A program made the position numbers and the translations under genes. A DNA stretch of 64,000 nt from Muscardinus avellanarius (Eukaryota > Chordata > Mammalia > Rodentia > Gliridae). The notes under the pieces are model-generated. The model did not search any database. It worked only from the letters and a program-made list of their open reading frames with translations, and was not told the DNA's origin. The stretch spans positions 155,410,488 through 155,474,487 of the forward strand of contig OY726560.1 of NCBI GenBank assembly GCA_963383645.1, written 5' to 3'. Below are positions 7,188 to 48,257 of the stretch, in pieces. Position 1 is the stretch's first letter. The number at the start of each line of letters is the position of its first letter.

Positions 7188-8287
7188 TTATTCTTGCATT
7201 TCATAAATGTCTTCATCTAGATGTAAAGGGAGTGGGCACTGAGGAGAGGAGATCCATGCAAACTGGATTCCTGACAACACAGCCCACCGGCACAGCTAGC
7301 CTGGGCCACACCCGCCCTGCACAGGCGACCACCAAGCTGTCTGTGCCCCCAGTCCACCAGCATGCATGAGCGTGGGGGAGAAGGTTCTAGCACAAATGCT
7401 CTGACGGCTGACTCCACTGGAAACCCAGGCTCCACCTCTGCCTCGACACCTCTGAACGACTGTGCCCTGACCAGCTTCCCAAGAGCCCCATTCCGAGCAC
7501 ACTTGGGCCAAGCGAGACAAGAGCTACATGTAGCCCAGCTCCAGGTGACCCACCATTTTAAGGAAAGCCACGTGACATCGGCTGGCTGAGGGACCCAGAG
7601 AGCAGCTCCCTACCTCGCACCATACATTCTTGGGTGAACAGTCGTTCCCGGTCTGCTGCCCGTGGAAAACACGGCCAGGGCATCAGATCCCAAATCCCCC
7701 CACCTCCCAACACCCGGCATTGCAGGAAGAGTGGTATAACCTGTCAGGTCCAGATGAGAGCAGGACCTCTTACAGGAAAGTAGATTTCTACAGATTTCCA
7801 TAGGGCCCAGCACGCGAACACACACATGGGAACAGAACACACAGAGCTGGAGGCCACGGGCCCAGGGGGCTCAGCGGCAGGACATAGGGGCGGGGGTCAC
7901 AGGCTCCACAGCGGGGTCACACACGAGAGGTCTGGGGGCAGCTCCGCACATCGGCTTAGGTTCCCTCTACCACAGGAGACATATCTCGGGCACCTTGGAG
8001 TTGGAGAATTAGTTCCCAATTCTATTTTAGGCCGGGAAGCTCCTGTGTCCCTTCTTTTCAGCAGAACGCCTCCTGTGCACTTTTGGGTCTCTCAAACGTG
8101 GATTTCCCCACACAACAGGAGACAGCCGGAGCCCTCCTGCCCGACAAAGCTCTGTGTCTGTGCTACCCAAAACATACCCATGTGGCAGGGCTTGCACGCC
8201 CGACAAGTCGCTAGTGCAACTGAAGAACTGAGTTTCCAGTTTCATTTAGTTCTTATTAGTTGAAACTTATTTGTTCATTTATTTACT

Positions 8288-20819: not shown

Positions 20820-21148
20820 CGGAGCCCGGAGCGCGGAGCCCGGAGCGCGGAGCCCGGAGCGCGGGGCGCGGAGCCCGGAGCCTGGAGCCCGGAGCCCGGA
20901 GCGCGGAGCCCGGGACGCGGAGCGCGGGGCGCGGAGCCCGGAGCCTGGAGCCCGGAGCCCGGGGCGCGGAGCCCGGGACGCGGAGCGCGGGGCGCGGAGC
21001 CCGGAGCCTGGAGCCCGGAGCCCGGGGCGCGGAGCCCGGAGCGCGGAGCCCAGAGCCCAGAACCCGGGGCGCGGAGCCCGGAGCGCGGAGCCCAGAGCCC
21101 AGAACCCGGGGCGCGGAGCCCGGGGCGCGGGGCGCGGAGCCCGGGGCG
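20820..21148 (+). repeat. Heptamer tandem array, 47 copies in phase
   Basis: The whole block parses without gaps into 7-base units, mostly GAGCCCG, GAGCGCG, GGGCGCG, GAGCCTG, GAGCCCA, GAACCCG and GGACGCG. Units are grouped into higher-order blocks: a nine-unit (63 bp) block seen about three times, then a six-unit (42 bp) block seen twice. It lies roughly 300 bases inside the predicted FAM53B intron 1, within the CpG island. Seven bases is not a multiple of three and no unit creates a stop, so all frames stay open and yield a 7-residue period. Confidence 0.95.
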
Positions 21149-41100: not shown

Positions 41101-44100
41101 CAACTTAGCAAGAGTCTCAGCAGCTCTCAAATCCTCAGAGAGATTCTTATTTCGAAATAAAAAATGGGTAAGGGTGTAGCTCAAGATGGGGGTGGAGGAT
41201 GGGGAGCAGAGATGGAAGCATAGAATTCCCTGGGGTCAATCCTCAATACAGAGAGGGAAAAAATTAGTAGGCAGGACCTGTATCAATTCTCCATATTTTG
41301 TTTCTGTGCAATGTTAAAACAATCTCTTTTGGTGTGTGTGGTACTAGGGAGTGAGCGCAGGATTCGGAGCTAAACGCCTAACTCTATTTTCATTTTCTTA
41401 TTTATTTACTTTTGTTGTACTGGGCACTGAACACAGGGGCACTCTACCTCTGAGCTGTACCCTCACCCCTGTTTTTTATTCTTTATTCTGAAACTGGGTC
41501 TCACTAAGTTGTGGAAAGCCTAAGTAGCTGAGACTGGCCGCGCACCTACGCTCCTCCTGCCTCAGTGTCCCAAGTGTTGAGATTATAAAGCGTGCACCAC
41601 CGCACACAGCTTTATTTGATAACGGTCTGGGCCGGGCGTGGCGGGCACGCTTGTAATCCTAGGGCTTGGGAGGCTGAGACTGGAGGATCGCACGGGTTCG
41701 AAGCCAGCCTCAGCTACTCAGTGAGGCTTCAGCAACTTAGTGAGACCCTGTTTCCAAATAAAGTATAGAATAGGTCTGGGAGTACCTGGGTTCCACCCCC
41801 AGTACCACAAAAAATAAATAAATAAATAAATAAATACATAAAGCAGGGTCTTGTTAAATTGATGAGTCTCACTACTTGTTGAAACTGTCCTCGAACCTGC
41901 AATCCTCATGTCTCAGCCTCCCAAGTACTGGGATTACAAGCAAGTGCCACCACACCCATCCTAAAAATAATTATTCTACATACACTGAGGACAAATCCTA
42001 AATACCTACAAGACTTATAGAGCATGATATATAAAGTATCTATAAAATTAAAACTCTTGCCGGGCATGGTGGCACACGCTTGCAATCCCCACACTTGGGA
42101 GGCTGAGACAAGAGGATTGCACAGGTTCAAAGCCAGCCTCCGCTGGCTTAAGAGACCCTATTTCCAAATAAAAAATATAAAATAGGTCTGGGAGTGTAGC
42201 CCAAAGGTAGAAGGCCCCTGGATTCCATCCCCAGTACCACCAAGAAAAAAAAAAATTTAAAATTCTCATTCAGCATGAGGCCAAGCGTGGTGGCGCACAC
42301 TTGTAATTCCTGCGCTTGGGAGGCTGAGACAGGAGGATCACACGGGTTCGAAGCCAGCCTCAGCTATTTAGTGAGGCTCTCAGCAACTTAGTGAGACCCT
42401 GTTTCCAAATAAAATATATTAAAAAAAAAAAAGGTCTGGGAGTATAGCCCGGAAGTAGAAAGCCTCTGGGTTCCACCCCCAGTACCACCCAAGACAGGAG
42501 GATAGCAGGTTTGAAACCCCTCGCTGGCTTAAGAGACCCTGTTTCCAAATAAAAATATAACATAGGTCTGGGAGTGTAGCCCAGAGGTAGAAGGGTTCCA
42601 TCCCTATTACAATAAATAAATAAATAAATAAATAAATAAAATGGGGTTGAATATAATATACCTCAGAGGTAGAATGCCCCTGGGCTCAATCCCCAGTACC
42701 ACCAAAAAAAAAAAAAAAAAATTAAACTTTCATGACTGAAGTAAAATATTACTTTCACTTGCATTATTATAAATTTGATAGTGGATCAGTATACTTAAGT
42801 CAAAAGCACAATCTATTTGCTTTTTTTTTTTCTTCTAAATAATAGATTGTGTCGCTTAACTAAAAGATTGCATTGCTTAAATAAAGAACTTGATTTTTAC
42901 AGGCTCATAAATTTAGTACTTAACTGCCAGGATTTCTGGGAAATTTTTTACAAAGGCCTCTGGATCTCAACCAATGTTATTTCTCTCTGCTTTGTATGTA
43001 CAGTTAAAAGTTATTACTGAGGTCATTAAACAGAGAAGAAAAACAGGCAATTCCCACAAACAGAGAAGTAAAGCACAACACACAGGGCGAGCCTGCGTAA
43101 GGAGAGAGACCGAAGCCGCACATCTGAACACCACCGCCACTCACCGTCACGGAACTCGTTTAGCAATTCTTCCTTGGTCCAGTTACATGAGGTTATCAGA
43201 AAAAAGCCTCCTTCCTTCAACACCCCGGACAGAGATTTCACGTACTGCTTCCTCTTCTCAACCGCACCATCAGGGCTGAGGCTGATGGCGTCAAAAGTTC
43301 CTTTGTCAATACAAAGATGAAATCCAGAAAGTTTTGTGGAAAGATTCAAAAAGTCTTCTACCTGTATTAAAACGCAATGCCTATATGAGAACAATTAACA
43401 CACAACCTTTGCGGAATGTAAGTGGCAACCTGTAAAAGCTTAGGGGTAAAAGGGCCCTTAACTGTGATGCCATTTTATGTATAATAAACATATTTTCAAT
43501 TTTATAGCTAACATTTACGAGCTCCATTCCAAGATCATTAAAGCCAAGATTAGTCAGAAAGGCTGACAGTGTTTCCTGGACATTCCAAATGTCTACAAAT
43601 TCAGAAACAAATCAAAGCCAGGTGGAGTGCTACCACTAGCAGACCAGCACATTCTGGGGCCCACAAGCCCGACGGGTGAAAGAGCTGTTTCTATGTAAAA
43701 GTAAAATAGCTGACATATTTATCAAACTGACAACATTTATTTGGGCCTCAGGTCACTGGGGAAAAGGTTTTAAGTTACACTCCTAGTTGTGTGACCTAAT
43801 GCAAACTTGGCAAGTCAAAAGTTCTGCACTGACTCAGCAGCCTGAAAAGATACAACAGGGTACAATAAATGGCACAAAGCGTAAGAAACTAAATGACTGC
43901 TTAAACTGTAATTACACTACTGGGGAAATACGTGCACTTTAGATTCTTAGAGTCATACAATAGCATCTCATTTTCAATCACCTGATACAATTTAAATAGT
44001 TGAAATAATGATCTCCCTCAATTCTATGAAATATTTATAAAAATTTACCAATGAACTTAATTCAGAAAAGGTATTTAAAAAATAATTAAGAGTCGGGCGT

Positions 44101-45674
44101 GGTGACACACGCTTGTAATCCCAGCATTTGGGAGGCTGAAACCAGAGGATCGCAGTTTGCGAATAGCCTCAGCTACTTAGTGAGGCCCTCCATAACTTAG
44201 TGAGACCCTGTTTCAAAATAAAGAATAAAAATAGGACAGGGGGTGTGGCTCGGAGGTCAAATGCCCCTGAGTTCCATCCCCAGACCCACCAAAAAAAAAA
44301 AAAAAAAAAAAAAAAAATCAAGCAATTTAAGGTTTAAAAAGAATTTTCTCTAAAATTCCTATCAACTTAAAATTGTATTTTGAGCCTGGAATAATTACAA
44401 GTGTGGTGGTGCACGCTTGCAATCCCAGCAATTTTTTTTTTTTTTTTTTTTTTGGCGGTTCTGGGGATAAGAACCCAGGGGCATTCTCCCTCTGAGAATT
44501 CTCCAGTAATACATACATGCACGTGTGCGTGCGCCCCCACAGTCCGTTCATGTTACCTTCAGAATCCGTCCTGTGTCTAAGCATGCAGAGTGGAGTGTGG
44601 ACCCCCGCCCGCCTCCACGGAGTCCTTCCTTGCTTACTTCAGCGCCTCGTCTCTTCCTCCGCAGCCACACTTGAAACACTCAGGCTAATTTTTTATTCTT
44701 AATTAATTTTATTAATTTTATTCAGCCCTATTTTTTATTCTTTATTTCGAAACAGGGTCTCACTAAGTTGCAGAGGGCCTCACTAAGTAAGTAGCTGGGG
44801 CTGGCCACGAACCTGGATCCTCCTGTCTCAGCCTCCCGAATGCTGGGATTATTAGTGTGCACCACCACGCCTGGCTGTAATCCCAGCATTTGGGAGGCTG
44901 AGGCAGGAAAATCTGGGCCGCAGCCAGCCTCAACCACTTAGTGAGGCCCTTTGCATTCAGCGAAACCCTGTTTCAAAATAAAGAATGAAAAATAGGGCTG
45001 GGGGTGTAGCTCAGAGGTAGAATGCCGCTAAGCTCCATTCCCAGTACCACAAAAAAATAAAAATAAAAAATAATACCCAGTCTGCAATACAGAGTTATCG
45101 CAAGAGAAAACAGACTAAGACACAGGCTAAACAAATAACTTTAGATAAAGTGCTAATAAGAAAATAAAAAGAGCAATAAGACAGTAGGTGGCGAGGAGGA
45201 GAAAGACTTCGGAGCAAGTGGTCTGGGAGGCGCTCTAAGGAGGTCTCTGAGCAGAGACCAAATACTGAGAAGAGGGCAAAGTGCTAAGGTCGGGCAGAAC
45301 AGCGCAGCAGAGGAAAGCAGACTAACACTTGAAAATTAGCCTGAGTGTTTCAAGTGTGGCTGCGGAGGAAGAGACGAGGCGCTGAAGTAAGCAAGGAAGG
45401 ACTCCGTGGAGGCGGGCGGGGGTCCGCACTCCACTCTGAAGGTAACATGAACGGACCGTGGGGGCGCACGCACACGTGCATGTATGTATTACTGGAGACT
45501 GAACCCAGAAGCAGAAGCACAGATACCTCTGAGCTATCTCTCTCTCTCTTTTATTTATCTATTTTTTTTGCAGTCTGGGGATGGAACCCAGGGGCATTTG
45601 ACCTCTGACCTACAGCCCCTGCCCTATTTTTTATTCTTTATTTTGCTTTTTATTTATTTATTTATTTATATTTA

Positions 45675-45709
<35 letters not shown>

Positions 45710-48257
45710 TACCGGGGTTCCTGGCAGCCCTTCTACCTCTGGGCTACACTCCCAGACCCATTTTTACAGTTTTATTTGGAAACAGGGTCTCCTGAGCCAG
45801 CGCGCGCGGCTGGCTTCGAACCTGCGCGATCCTCCTGTCTCCGCCTCCCCAGCGCGGGGATGACAAGCGTGCGCCACCACGCCCGGCTTTATTCTTTATT
45901 TTGAAACAGGGTCTCACTGAGTTGCGGGCGGCCTCCCTAAGTGGCTGAGGCTGTCTGAGAACCGCGATCCTCCGGTCCCAGCCCCCCGAATGCTGGGGTG
46001 ACAGCGTGCCCACCGCGCCCGGCTTCTAAATCTATCTTAATTTTTATTCTGAAACAGATCTCACTAAGTTGCTGAGAATCTTGCTAAGTTGCAGAGGCTG
46101 ACCTCCAACCTGCAATCCTCCTGTCTCAGCCTCGCAAGTGTGGGCATTGCAGGTGTGCGCCACCACGCCGGATGGCGGGACGGGTTTTGCAGGAGGCAGT
46201 TCAAGTACAAAGGGATGCTCACGCTCCTGACAGACTGAAAGCAAAACCAACAGACGTGGACATTAGGCCCGAAGGCACGAGCAGCATCAAGGACGCCTCC
46301 CTGGGTGGGGGTTAGCTTAGCAGGTGAAAGGCGCCATCATGGACAGAAATGGAAAAGACTAGAAAAAACAGGTTTTAGGAGGAAATTAAGAATTTCATTC
46401 TGAGATAATCAAGTTTACAGTTAGCTGTCCAAGTGGACTTTTAGGATAAGCAGCTTTTACATAATTCTAGAGCTCAGACAAAAGTCCTGGGCAAGAAATA
46501 CAAATTTAAGAACCATCATCTCACTGATCTTAGGACAGAAAAATAAACTAAATGAGCCAAGTGTTGTGGCGCACGCTTGCAATCCCAGTACCTGGGAGGC
46601 TGAGAAGGGAGGACCGCAGGTTCCCAGCCAGCCTCCGCTAGTGAGGCCCTCCCCAACTTAGTGAGACACTGTTTCAAAATGAAGAATAAAAACTAGGGCT
46701 AGGAGTGTAGCTTGGAGGTAGCATGCACCTGGGTTCCATCCCCAGTACCAAACAAAGAAGTAACCTAAGTGACCTTGGGTGACGTATACCATTCTATGCA
46801 TCTGCAGTTTTAATCTGGTCAACCGTGGGTAGGTATGAATTGCACTTTTGCAAACACGGAGGGTCAGTAGATGACAAGACAGGAGCACAAAGAGGAAGCG
46901 CCCTGAACTGACGCGAAATCCTCAGAAGCGATGTGCAGACGCTTCGATTGTACTATTTATGGTTAATCTTCAATTAAGTTCCAAAGATGTCAGGTTAATG
47001 GACTTTAGAAACATTTAAACTTTATAACTTTCATTATGAATAAAAGTACAATAATATAAATAATAGTTACCTTCAATGTAATGTTCGATAACCCTTCTTT
47101 CTCTATAATACTTCTAGAAAGCTGAATTGCAGAAGGAGAGTAATCAATTCCAGTAATATTAGAGAAACCGAATTTTGCCTAGAGACAGAAAAATAATTTT
47201 ACACCTCAGTTTAAGTTTTAATATGATTTTTGGCTTATGAATTACAACATTCCCTTAGTACTAGGGTTGTTTTAAATTTGTTTTAGATCAAATGACATGT
47301 AATATCCAATAATATACAATGTTTACATTTTGTTCTAAAGTCTAAATAGAAACCAAGTTTAAAGTTATATGACAATTCGTTGCTCTTGTAATACTTGATT
47401 TCTTTTTCAGAAAGAAATTTACTCAAAGATAATGAAAGTGTATGTATAAGCCCTCAAGCAGAAAAATGTTGTATTCACTTCTGTTACTAAAATGCTCCAA
47501 TTCACATCTAAATGTCATAAATGTTACTTAACCCAATTAAGTTATACTAGTAAATTAAATGCATATGTAGCAAGTTACTGATTTTTCATTTTTGCTTCAG
47601 TGTAATTATAAATTATCCAATTCTCCCCAGCCATGTGATTAGCCACCTGTACTCATACAGTACTTTTTTGTTTTTCAAATATTCCATTAATTCCATCTTT
47701 ACAAAAAGCCCGTGAGTCAGGCTGGGCAGGCATTACTGTCCTCGAGCTGCGTATTAGCCATAAACCCTTCTAGGGCCTGCGGGGCCTGTGGCAAGAACTT
47801 GGTGGCTTCTACTCTTCATCCCACCATTAATTACAAGAAACATTTTTAGACCAATGAGGCTAAAAACAATTTCAAAGGAAATACAGAAAACAAAAAAGTT
47901 CCCAGCCAGGCGTGGTGGCGCACGCTTGTAATCCCAGCACTTGGGAAGCTGAGACAGGAGGATCAAGGTTCATGGCCAGCTTCAGCTACTTAGAGAGGCC
48001 TTTTGCAACTCAGTGAGACCCTATTTAGAAATAAAGAATAGCCGGGCGTGGCGCACGCTTGTAATCCCCGCGCTTGGGAGGCAGAGACAGGAGGATCACG
48101 CAGGTTCGCAGCCAGCCACGTGTGCTGGCTTAGGAGACCATGTTTCCAAATAAAAATGTAAAAATAGGTCTGGGAGTGTAGCCCGGAGGTAGAAGGGCTT
48201 CCAGGAACCCCAGTACCACCAAAAAATAAAGAAAGAAAGAAAGAAAGAGAGAAAGAG

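Follow-up and report, generated by a model that had tools for sequence, protein, structure and literature searches.

In the gold-standard set of template-switch mutations from great apes, the copied tracts have a median length of 12 nt and a maximum of 128 nt, and short-range denotes a distance within ~100 nt of each cluster (PMC7954356). The locus analysed here, located in intron 4 of EEF1AKMT2, resembles the four-point template-switch model of that report in that a nearby sequence appears to have been copied as its reverse complement between two close switch points, which are separated here by nine consensus bases of a SINE. It differs from the great-ape set, however, in its 193-nt tract, a donor ~0.6 kb away and an additional A/T-rich filler, and lies outside the range catalogued there. 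The tract exceeds any in this one great-ape catalogue, whose search range was short.

Templated insertions attributed to MMBIR and fold-back, as described in PMC11724301 and PMC8421209, share with our locus an inverted templated insert, a filler and some short shared words. In the literature search on such insertions, none of the papers listed used the phrase templated sequence insertion. Unlike the yeast fold-back insertions, which are mostly 5-34 bp (PMC11724301), the insert described here is in the germline, is longer and is separated from its counterpart by a 639-nt spacer. Inverted Alu pairs are similar in that close opposed SINEs constitute a potential RNA hairpin, an editing target and unstable DNA (PMC3215922 and PMC526178). 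The template-switch RNA hairpins described in PMC8794818 also resemble the present case, since the two strands of a near-perfect stem are supplied by a single mutation; those hairpins, however, belong to RNA genes and have helices of 2 to 10 bases, whereas the stem predicted here is intronic, measures 166 bp and shows no sign of function.

We consider it very probable that the layout of the locus is best explained by a nested SINE followed by a replicative template-switch inverted insertion, which makes the locus an instructive example of known mutation processes. It provides a directional record of an apparent single template-switch event, in which the known identity of the recipient element allows the bases lost and gained to be counted. 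The locus also shows the origin of a spacerless head-to-head SINE pair, namely one SINE landing inside another, and suggests that template-switch insertions of this kind can create a long RNA hairpin in a single mutation.

A minus SINE nested in a plus SINE

SINEs were annotated with a profile built from copies in this genome. Its second round gave 278 matches, of which 108 lie in the window, i.e. the whole 64-kb stretch of DNA that was analysed (C4:155410488-155474487). The consensus is 203 nt long, its first half resembling B1 and its second half ID; we take the family to be B1-dID, a squirrel SINE of the B1/ID type, and it is from this SINE type that the putative sciurid origin of the genome is drawn. 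This name is absent from the available part of PMC5335264, and literature searches on the family name gave nothing usable. SINEs of this type cover ~28% of the window, compared with 16% on average across 18 stretches of 10 kb sampled from the genome.

The minus SINE and the plus SINE abut at 44875/44876 with zero spacer (Table 1). The anatomy shows how this head-to-head pair arose: a minus B1/ID-type SINE retrotransposed into an older plus SINE. The host plus SINE is continuous across the insertion, with consensus 5-37 on one side and 17-202 on the other; the two copies of the putative target-site duplication, TGCAATCCCAGCA and TGTAATCCCAGCA, are identical at 12 of 13 positions, and the A-tail of the minus SINE reads as 22 T on the plus strand (44432-44453), next to the first copy. 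Hence a target-site duplication, an A-tail and a continuous host element are all recognisable, as expected from target-primed reverse transcription. The spacer is zero because the junction is the insertion point of the minus SINE in the plus SINE. The first 6 bases of the plus SINE match at 44870-45052 were assigned to the end of the minus SINE. Unlike the inverted Alu pairs mentioned above, the present pair arose by nesting, has no spacer and is composed of elements that presumably belong to the B1/ID type.

Table 1. Positions of the features in the window, together with the inverted pairs found in the SINE-masked control stretches
Feature	Position	Strand	Description
EEF1AKMT2 intron 4	43374-47067	−	tblastn exon matches; 3694 nt, ends approximate to about a dozen bases
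Plus SINE (older), 5' piece	44399-44430	+	profile match 44400-44432 = consensus 5-37
Target-site duplication, copy 1	44418-44430		TGCAATCCCAGCA
Minus SINE (nested), 3' part	44431-44496	−	profile match 44453-44496 = consensus 202-160
Insert	44497-44722	none	226 nt in place of consensus 151-159 of the minus SINE; 3 nt (44497-44499), left arm (44500-44692), 30 nt of A/T-rich filler (44693-44722)
Left arm	44500-44692	−	inverted relative to 45332-45498 and taken to be the copy
26 nt exclusive to the left arm	44560-44585	none	starts with CAGA, CAGA directly after
Minus SINE (nested), 5' part	44723-44875	−	profile match = consensus 150-1
Target-site duplication, copy 2	44876-44888		TGTAATCCCAGCA
Plus SINE (older), remainder	44876-45052	+	profile match 44870-45052 = consensus 17-202
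Right arm	45332-45498	+	read as the donor; outer end touches the weak SINE remnant
Weak SINE remnant	45486-45563		profile match, 18.1 bits
SINE-masked inverted pair	L026 (sampled stretch)		63/63 identical, spacer 223
SINE-masked inverted pair	L028 (sampled stretch)		28 nt, 27/28, spacer 843
SINE-masked palindrome	L021 (sampled stretch)		40 nt

The same arrangement is found elsewhere in the genome. At L003, L004 and L005 (mirrored), a SINE lies in a SINE at the same internal site, with the same spacerless junction and the second copy of the target beyond it; the junctions are near 1642-1701, and the insertions, which have target-site duplications, fall at about consensus 23-37. Seven loci were inspected in all, L002-L008, which correspond to six places (L002 and L006 are the same place on both strands), and the remaining loci join at other positions. 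The inspected loci came from a search biased to the junction (40 of 8860 candidates scored) and demonstrate recurrence, not frequency. It is possible that the internal site around consensus 23-37 is a preferred insertion site. In the window and the sample together, 9 neighbouring minus-then-plus pairs within 30 nt occur among 299 SINE annotations, many of which are fragments.

The inverted arms and the direction of copying

The left arm (193 nt) and the right arm (167 nt) are reverse complements, identical at 165 of 167 aligned bases (98.8%), and their alignment holds a single 26-nt gap at 44560-44585. The spacer between the arms is 639 nt and their starts are 832 nt apart. Their inverted match is more than chance. 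We scanned for inverted pairs within 2 kb by minus-strand blastn; the control was 180 kb of this genome (1330 N), taken as 10-kb stretches from 18 places. No pair in the control reached both 100 nt and 90% identity, while the window gave two, the target (98.8%) and one at 90.0%. Weaker pairs of at least 100 nt and at least 75% identity are frequent (106 in the 180-kb sample, 85 in the window). With SINEs masked, the window and sample (194,402 bases) yielded four inverted pairs that had 26 or more matched bases, an identity of at least 90% and sequence that is not simple. The target is the largest of the four, but as the window was picked because of it, no rate of inverted pairs is derivable from this. 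One of the others, at L026:7100-7162 / 7386-7448, is a perfect 63-bp inverted duplication outside SINEs, and its right copy ends near the 3' end of a minus SINE.

The genome (2.5 Gb in 104 contigs) was searched with 45080-45545 as the query. All three candidates were scored: the query itself, the left arm in inverted orientation, and a 75% match to query bases 387-463 on another contig. Within the limits of this search, the arms do not appear to be a dispersed repeat. We had suspected that 45080-45331 is related to an old interspersed repeat, an assignment that was dropped upon finding the arms and one weak match only. The 26 nt exclusive to the left arm have no second copy within the 64-kb window, where the best other match is 17/26.

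The surroundings of the two arms differ in a way that suggests the direction of copying. Apart from the insert that contains the left arm, the minus SINE is recognisable and continuous, with consensus 202-160 and 150-1 on either side, and only the 9 consensus bases 151-159 are missing between its two matched parts. The inner flank of the right arm, on the other hand, is intron sequence of which the genome search found no other copy. The left arm interrupts a SINE and the right arm lies in intron DNA without another copy; the right arm would therefore be the donor. Most likely, then, the left arm was inserted in inverted orientation with the right arm as its local template, at a time when both SINEs were already present.

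These results bear on an earlier sequence-only reading of this DNA. Its description of the arms as near-perfect reverse complements but for one 26-base indel is borne out, as is that of a spacerless head-to-head junction between a minus SINE and a plus SINE. Its limits hold for the left arm; the right end, put at 45497, is one base short. The two-tier layout it proposed stands, but not as a single structure of one origin, since the anatomy shows nested SINE and inverted insertion to be two events, and it overlooked the interruption of a SINE by the left arm, which gives the direction of copying.

The order of events, i.e. plus SINE, minus SINE and inverted copy, is taken from the nesting alone. 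The plus SINE diverges from the consensus by 15.3% (30/196) and the minus SINE by 9.8% (19/193), values from which SINE age may be overstated because the consensus blends subfamilies. At both mismatches between the arms, a CpG of the right arm stands opposite CpA or TpG in the left, as would be expected from deamination in the left copy. None of the 143 non-CpG sites differs between the arms (rule-of-three upper bound 2.1%), and gene conversion between the arms could be the cause of this young look. The CAGA/CAGA context suggests that the 26-nt difference probably reflects sequence deleted later from the right arm; the alternative is an insertion into the left arm.

Intron setting and predicted RNA fold

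With the human EEF1AKMT2 protein as the query, tblastn placed two exons on the minus strand, exon 4 at 47205-47068 and exon 5 at 43373-43143; the first residues of the exon 4 match extend into the intron. These matches uphold the earlier placement of the structure within intron 4. A literature search on EEF1AKMT2 introns in squirrel gave no paper naming EEF1AKMT2 among the matches listed. The hairpin stem is entirely inside the intron, so that it flanks no exon and loops out none, and there is no sign so far of a consequence for EEF1AKMT2 itself.

Folding was computed on the minus strand, which is the sense strand of EEF1AKMT2. The predicted energy of the 1139-nt region is -669.8 kcal/mol, compared with a mean of -400.0 (SD 77.5) for 109 windows of the same size and strand with no overlap with the region, and -340 (SD 10) kcal/mol for 20 mononucleotide shuffles. 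The outer stem is predicted to have 166 bp in helices of 94, 64 and 8 bp, close to the ~165 bp anticipated from the sequence-only reading. When the whole intron (3694 nt) was folded, 166 of the 193 left-arm bases paired with the right arm, and 115 of the 153 bases of 44723-44875 paired with the adjoining plus SINE. Both tiers that had been proposed for the minus-strand transcript are thus predicted, although the inner stem, put at ~150 bp, is present in imperfect form. The fold energy of the intron is -1604.0 intact and -1312.7 without 225 bases of the insert.

It is plausible that the intronic duplex, as modelled, would serve as an ADAR substrate and be edited where the gene is transcribed, because of published work on inverted Alus, in which editing correlates with distance and homology and peaks for pairs whose starts are separated by 300-400 nt (PMC526178); between the present arms this separation is 832 nt. 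We see no sign so far of a function for the hairpin.

Elsewhere in the window, a G+C-rich tandem array occupies 20820-21148, with a 14-nt unit inside a 63-nt unit; the overlapping fold window, 20721, has a predicted energy of -666.8.

Proposed template switching, alternatives and stability

The nested SINE and template-switch scheme would proceed as follows. A minus B1/ID-type SINE lands in an older plus SINE, and the target-site duplication sets the two heads together. DNA synthesis in the nested SINE would then switch template, copy ~193 nt of the opposite strand ~0.6 kb away and resume nine SINE bases further on, leaving the inverted copy and the A/T-rich filler. Subsequently, the 26 nt flanked by CAGA repeats were probably deleted from the right arm, and two CpGs were probably lost from the left. 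The hairpin RNA would be a by-product. While the insertion and its direction are read from the anatomy, we infer that the switch was of the replicative MMBIR/FoSTeS type.

The joins are compatible with microhomology-guided switching, though they are no proof of it. At the inner join, the donor ends in ATTTT, which overlaps with the beginning of ATTTTTTATTCTT. This 13-nt word belongs to the SINE linker and has further copies at 44730 and 45626, an arrangement that would fit a hop back to the SINE linker before the filler. The A/T-rich filler is accounted for only in part. The break at the outer join is itself devoid of microhomology; the copy begins with TCTCC, a word also present in the SINE at 44485-44489, seven bases ahead of the break. 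That the SINE palindrome caused a stall or break is our guess. In a broader and improbable form of this idea, recurrent nesting at a preferred SINE site would produce palindromes that seed fork stalling or breakage, giving rise to templated inverted insertions of 50-300 nt at a range of no more than ~1 kb. If this were true, short-range scans like that of PMC7954356 would overlook the 50-300 nt class, and palindrome-seeded insertions would go on adding long intronic hairpins in this lineage.

The same layout could result from fold-back repair of a double-strand break, in which a 3' end in the SINE palindrome snaps back, copies the right arm and is joined without involvement of a fork. Templated inverted duplications do arise by fold-back at breaks in yeast, and the SINE pair here could serve as the fold-back primer; the yeast products, however, are mostly about 5-34 bp long (PMC11724301). 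Moreover, a fold-back primed by the SINEs would be expected to copy the 3' part of the plus SINE and 45053-45331 as well, and the insert contains neither. We regard fold-back repair as unlikely on these grounds, with the reservation that it cannot be told apart from a template switch by sequence alone. Since fold-back chimeras are a known sequencing artefact, one arm could in principle have come from a chimeric read during assembly or library preparation. Such a chimera would be expected to yield identical arms, yet these are distinguished by two CpG transitions and by 26 nt; they are also 639 nt apart in different flanks, with the left arm placed inside a SINE that lacks nine consensus bases. 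An artefact, and hence an assembly error, is thus very unlikely as the source of the arms.

The exceptional stability of the predicted fold (-669.8 against a mean of -400.0 kcal/mol) might be taken to indicate a selected RNA hairpin or regulatory element. Any recent inverted copy would give such stability, however, and G+C-rich tandem sequence gives window 20721 an energy of -666.8; in addition, the stem flanks no exon and Rfam has no match at gathering score in 44000-46000, which makes selection highly improbable as well. The near-perfect inverted ends are also reminiscent of a DNA transposon or MITE, an explanation to which we give almost no credence and which was rejected: a mobile element would be present in many copies, but the search with the right arm found no further ones, giving only the two arms and one weak match, and the stretch between the arms is made up of SINE pieces and 45053-45331.

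Inverted SINEs are associated with instability in other systems. In long single-stranded DNA of yeast, the instability of inverted Alus is similar whether they are separated by 12 bp or by 30 kb, and it is suppressed only by heterology above 25% (PMC10164571); in human, inverted Alu pairs are under-represented (PMC3215922). The present structure had likewise been put forward as a deletion hotspot, a claim that finds no backing at the locus, where nothing shows deletion beyond the 26-nt difference. The inner SINE pair has persisted, given that its two elements diverge from the consensus by 9.8% and 15.3%.
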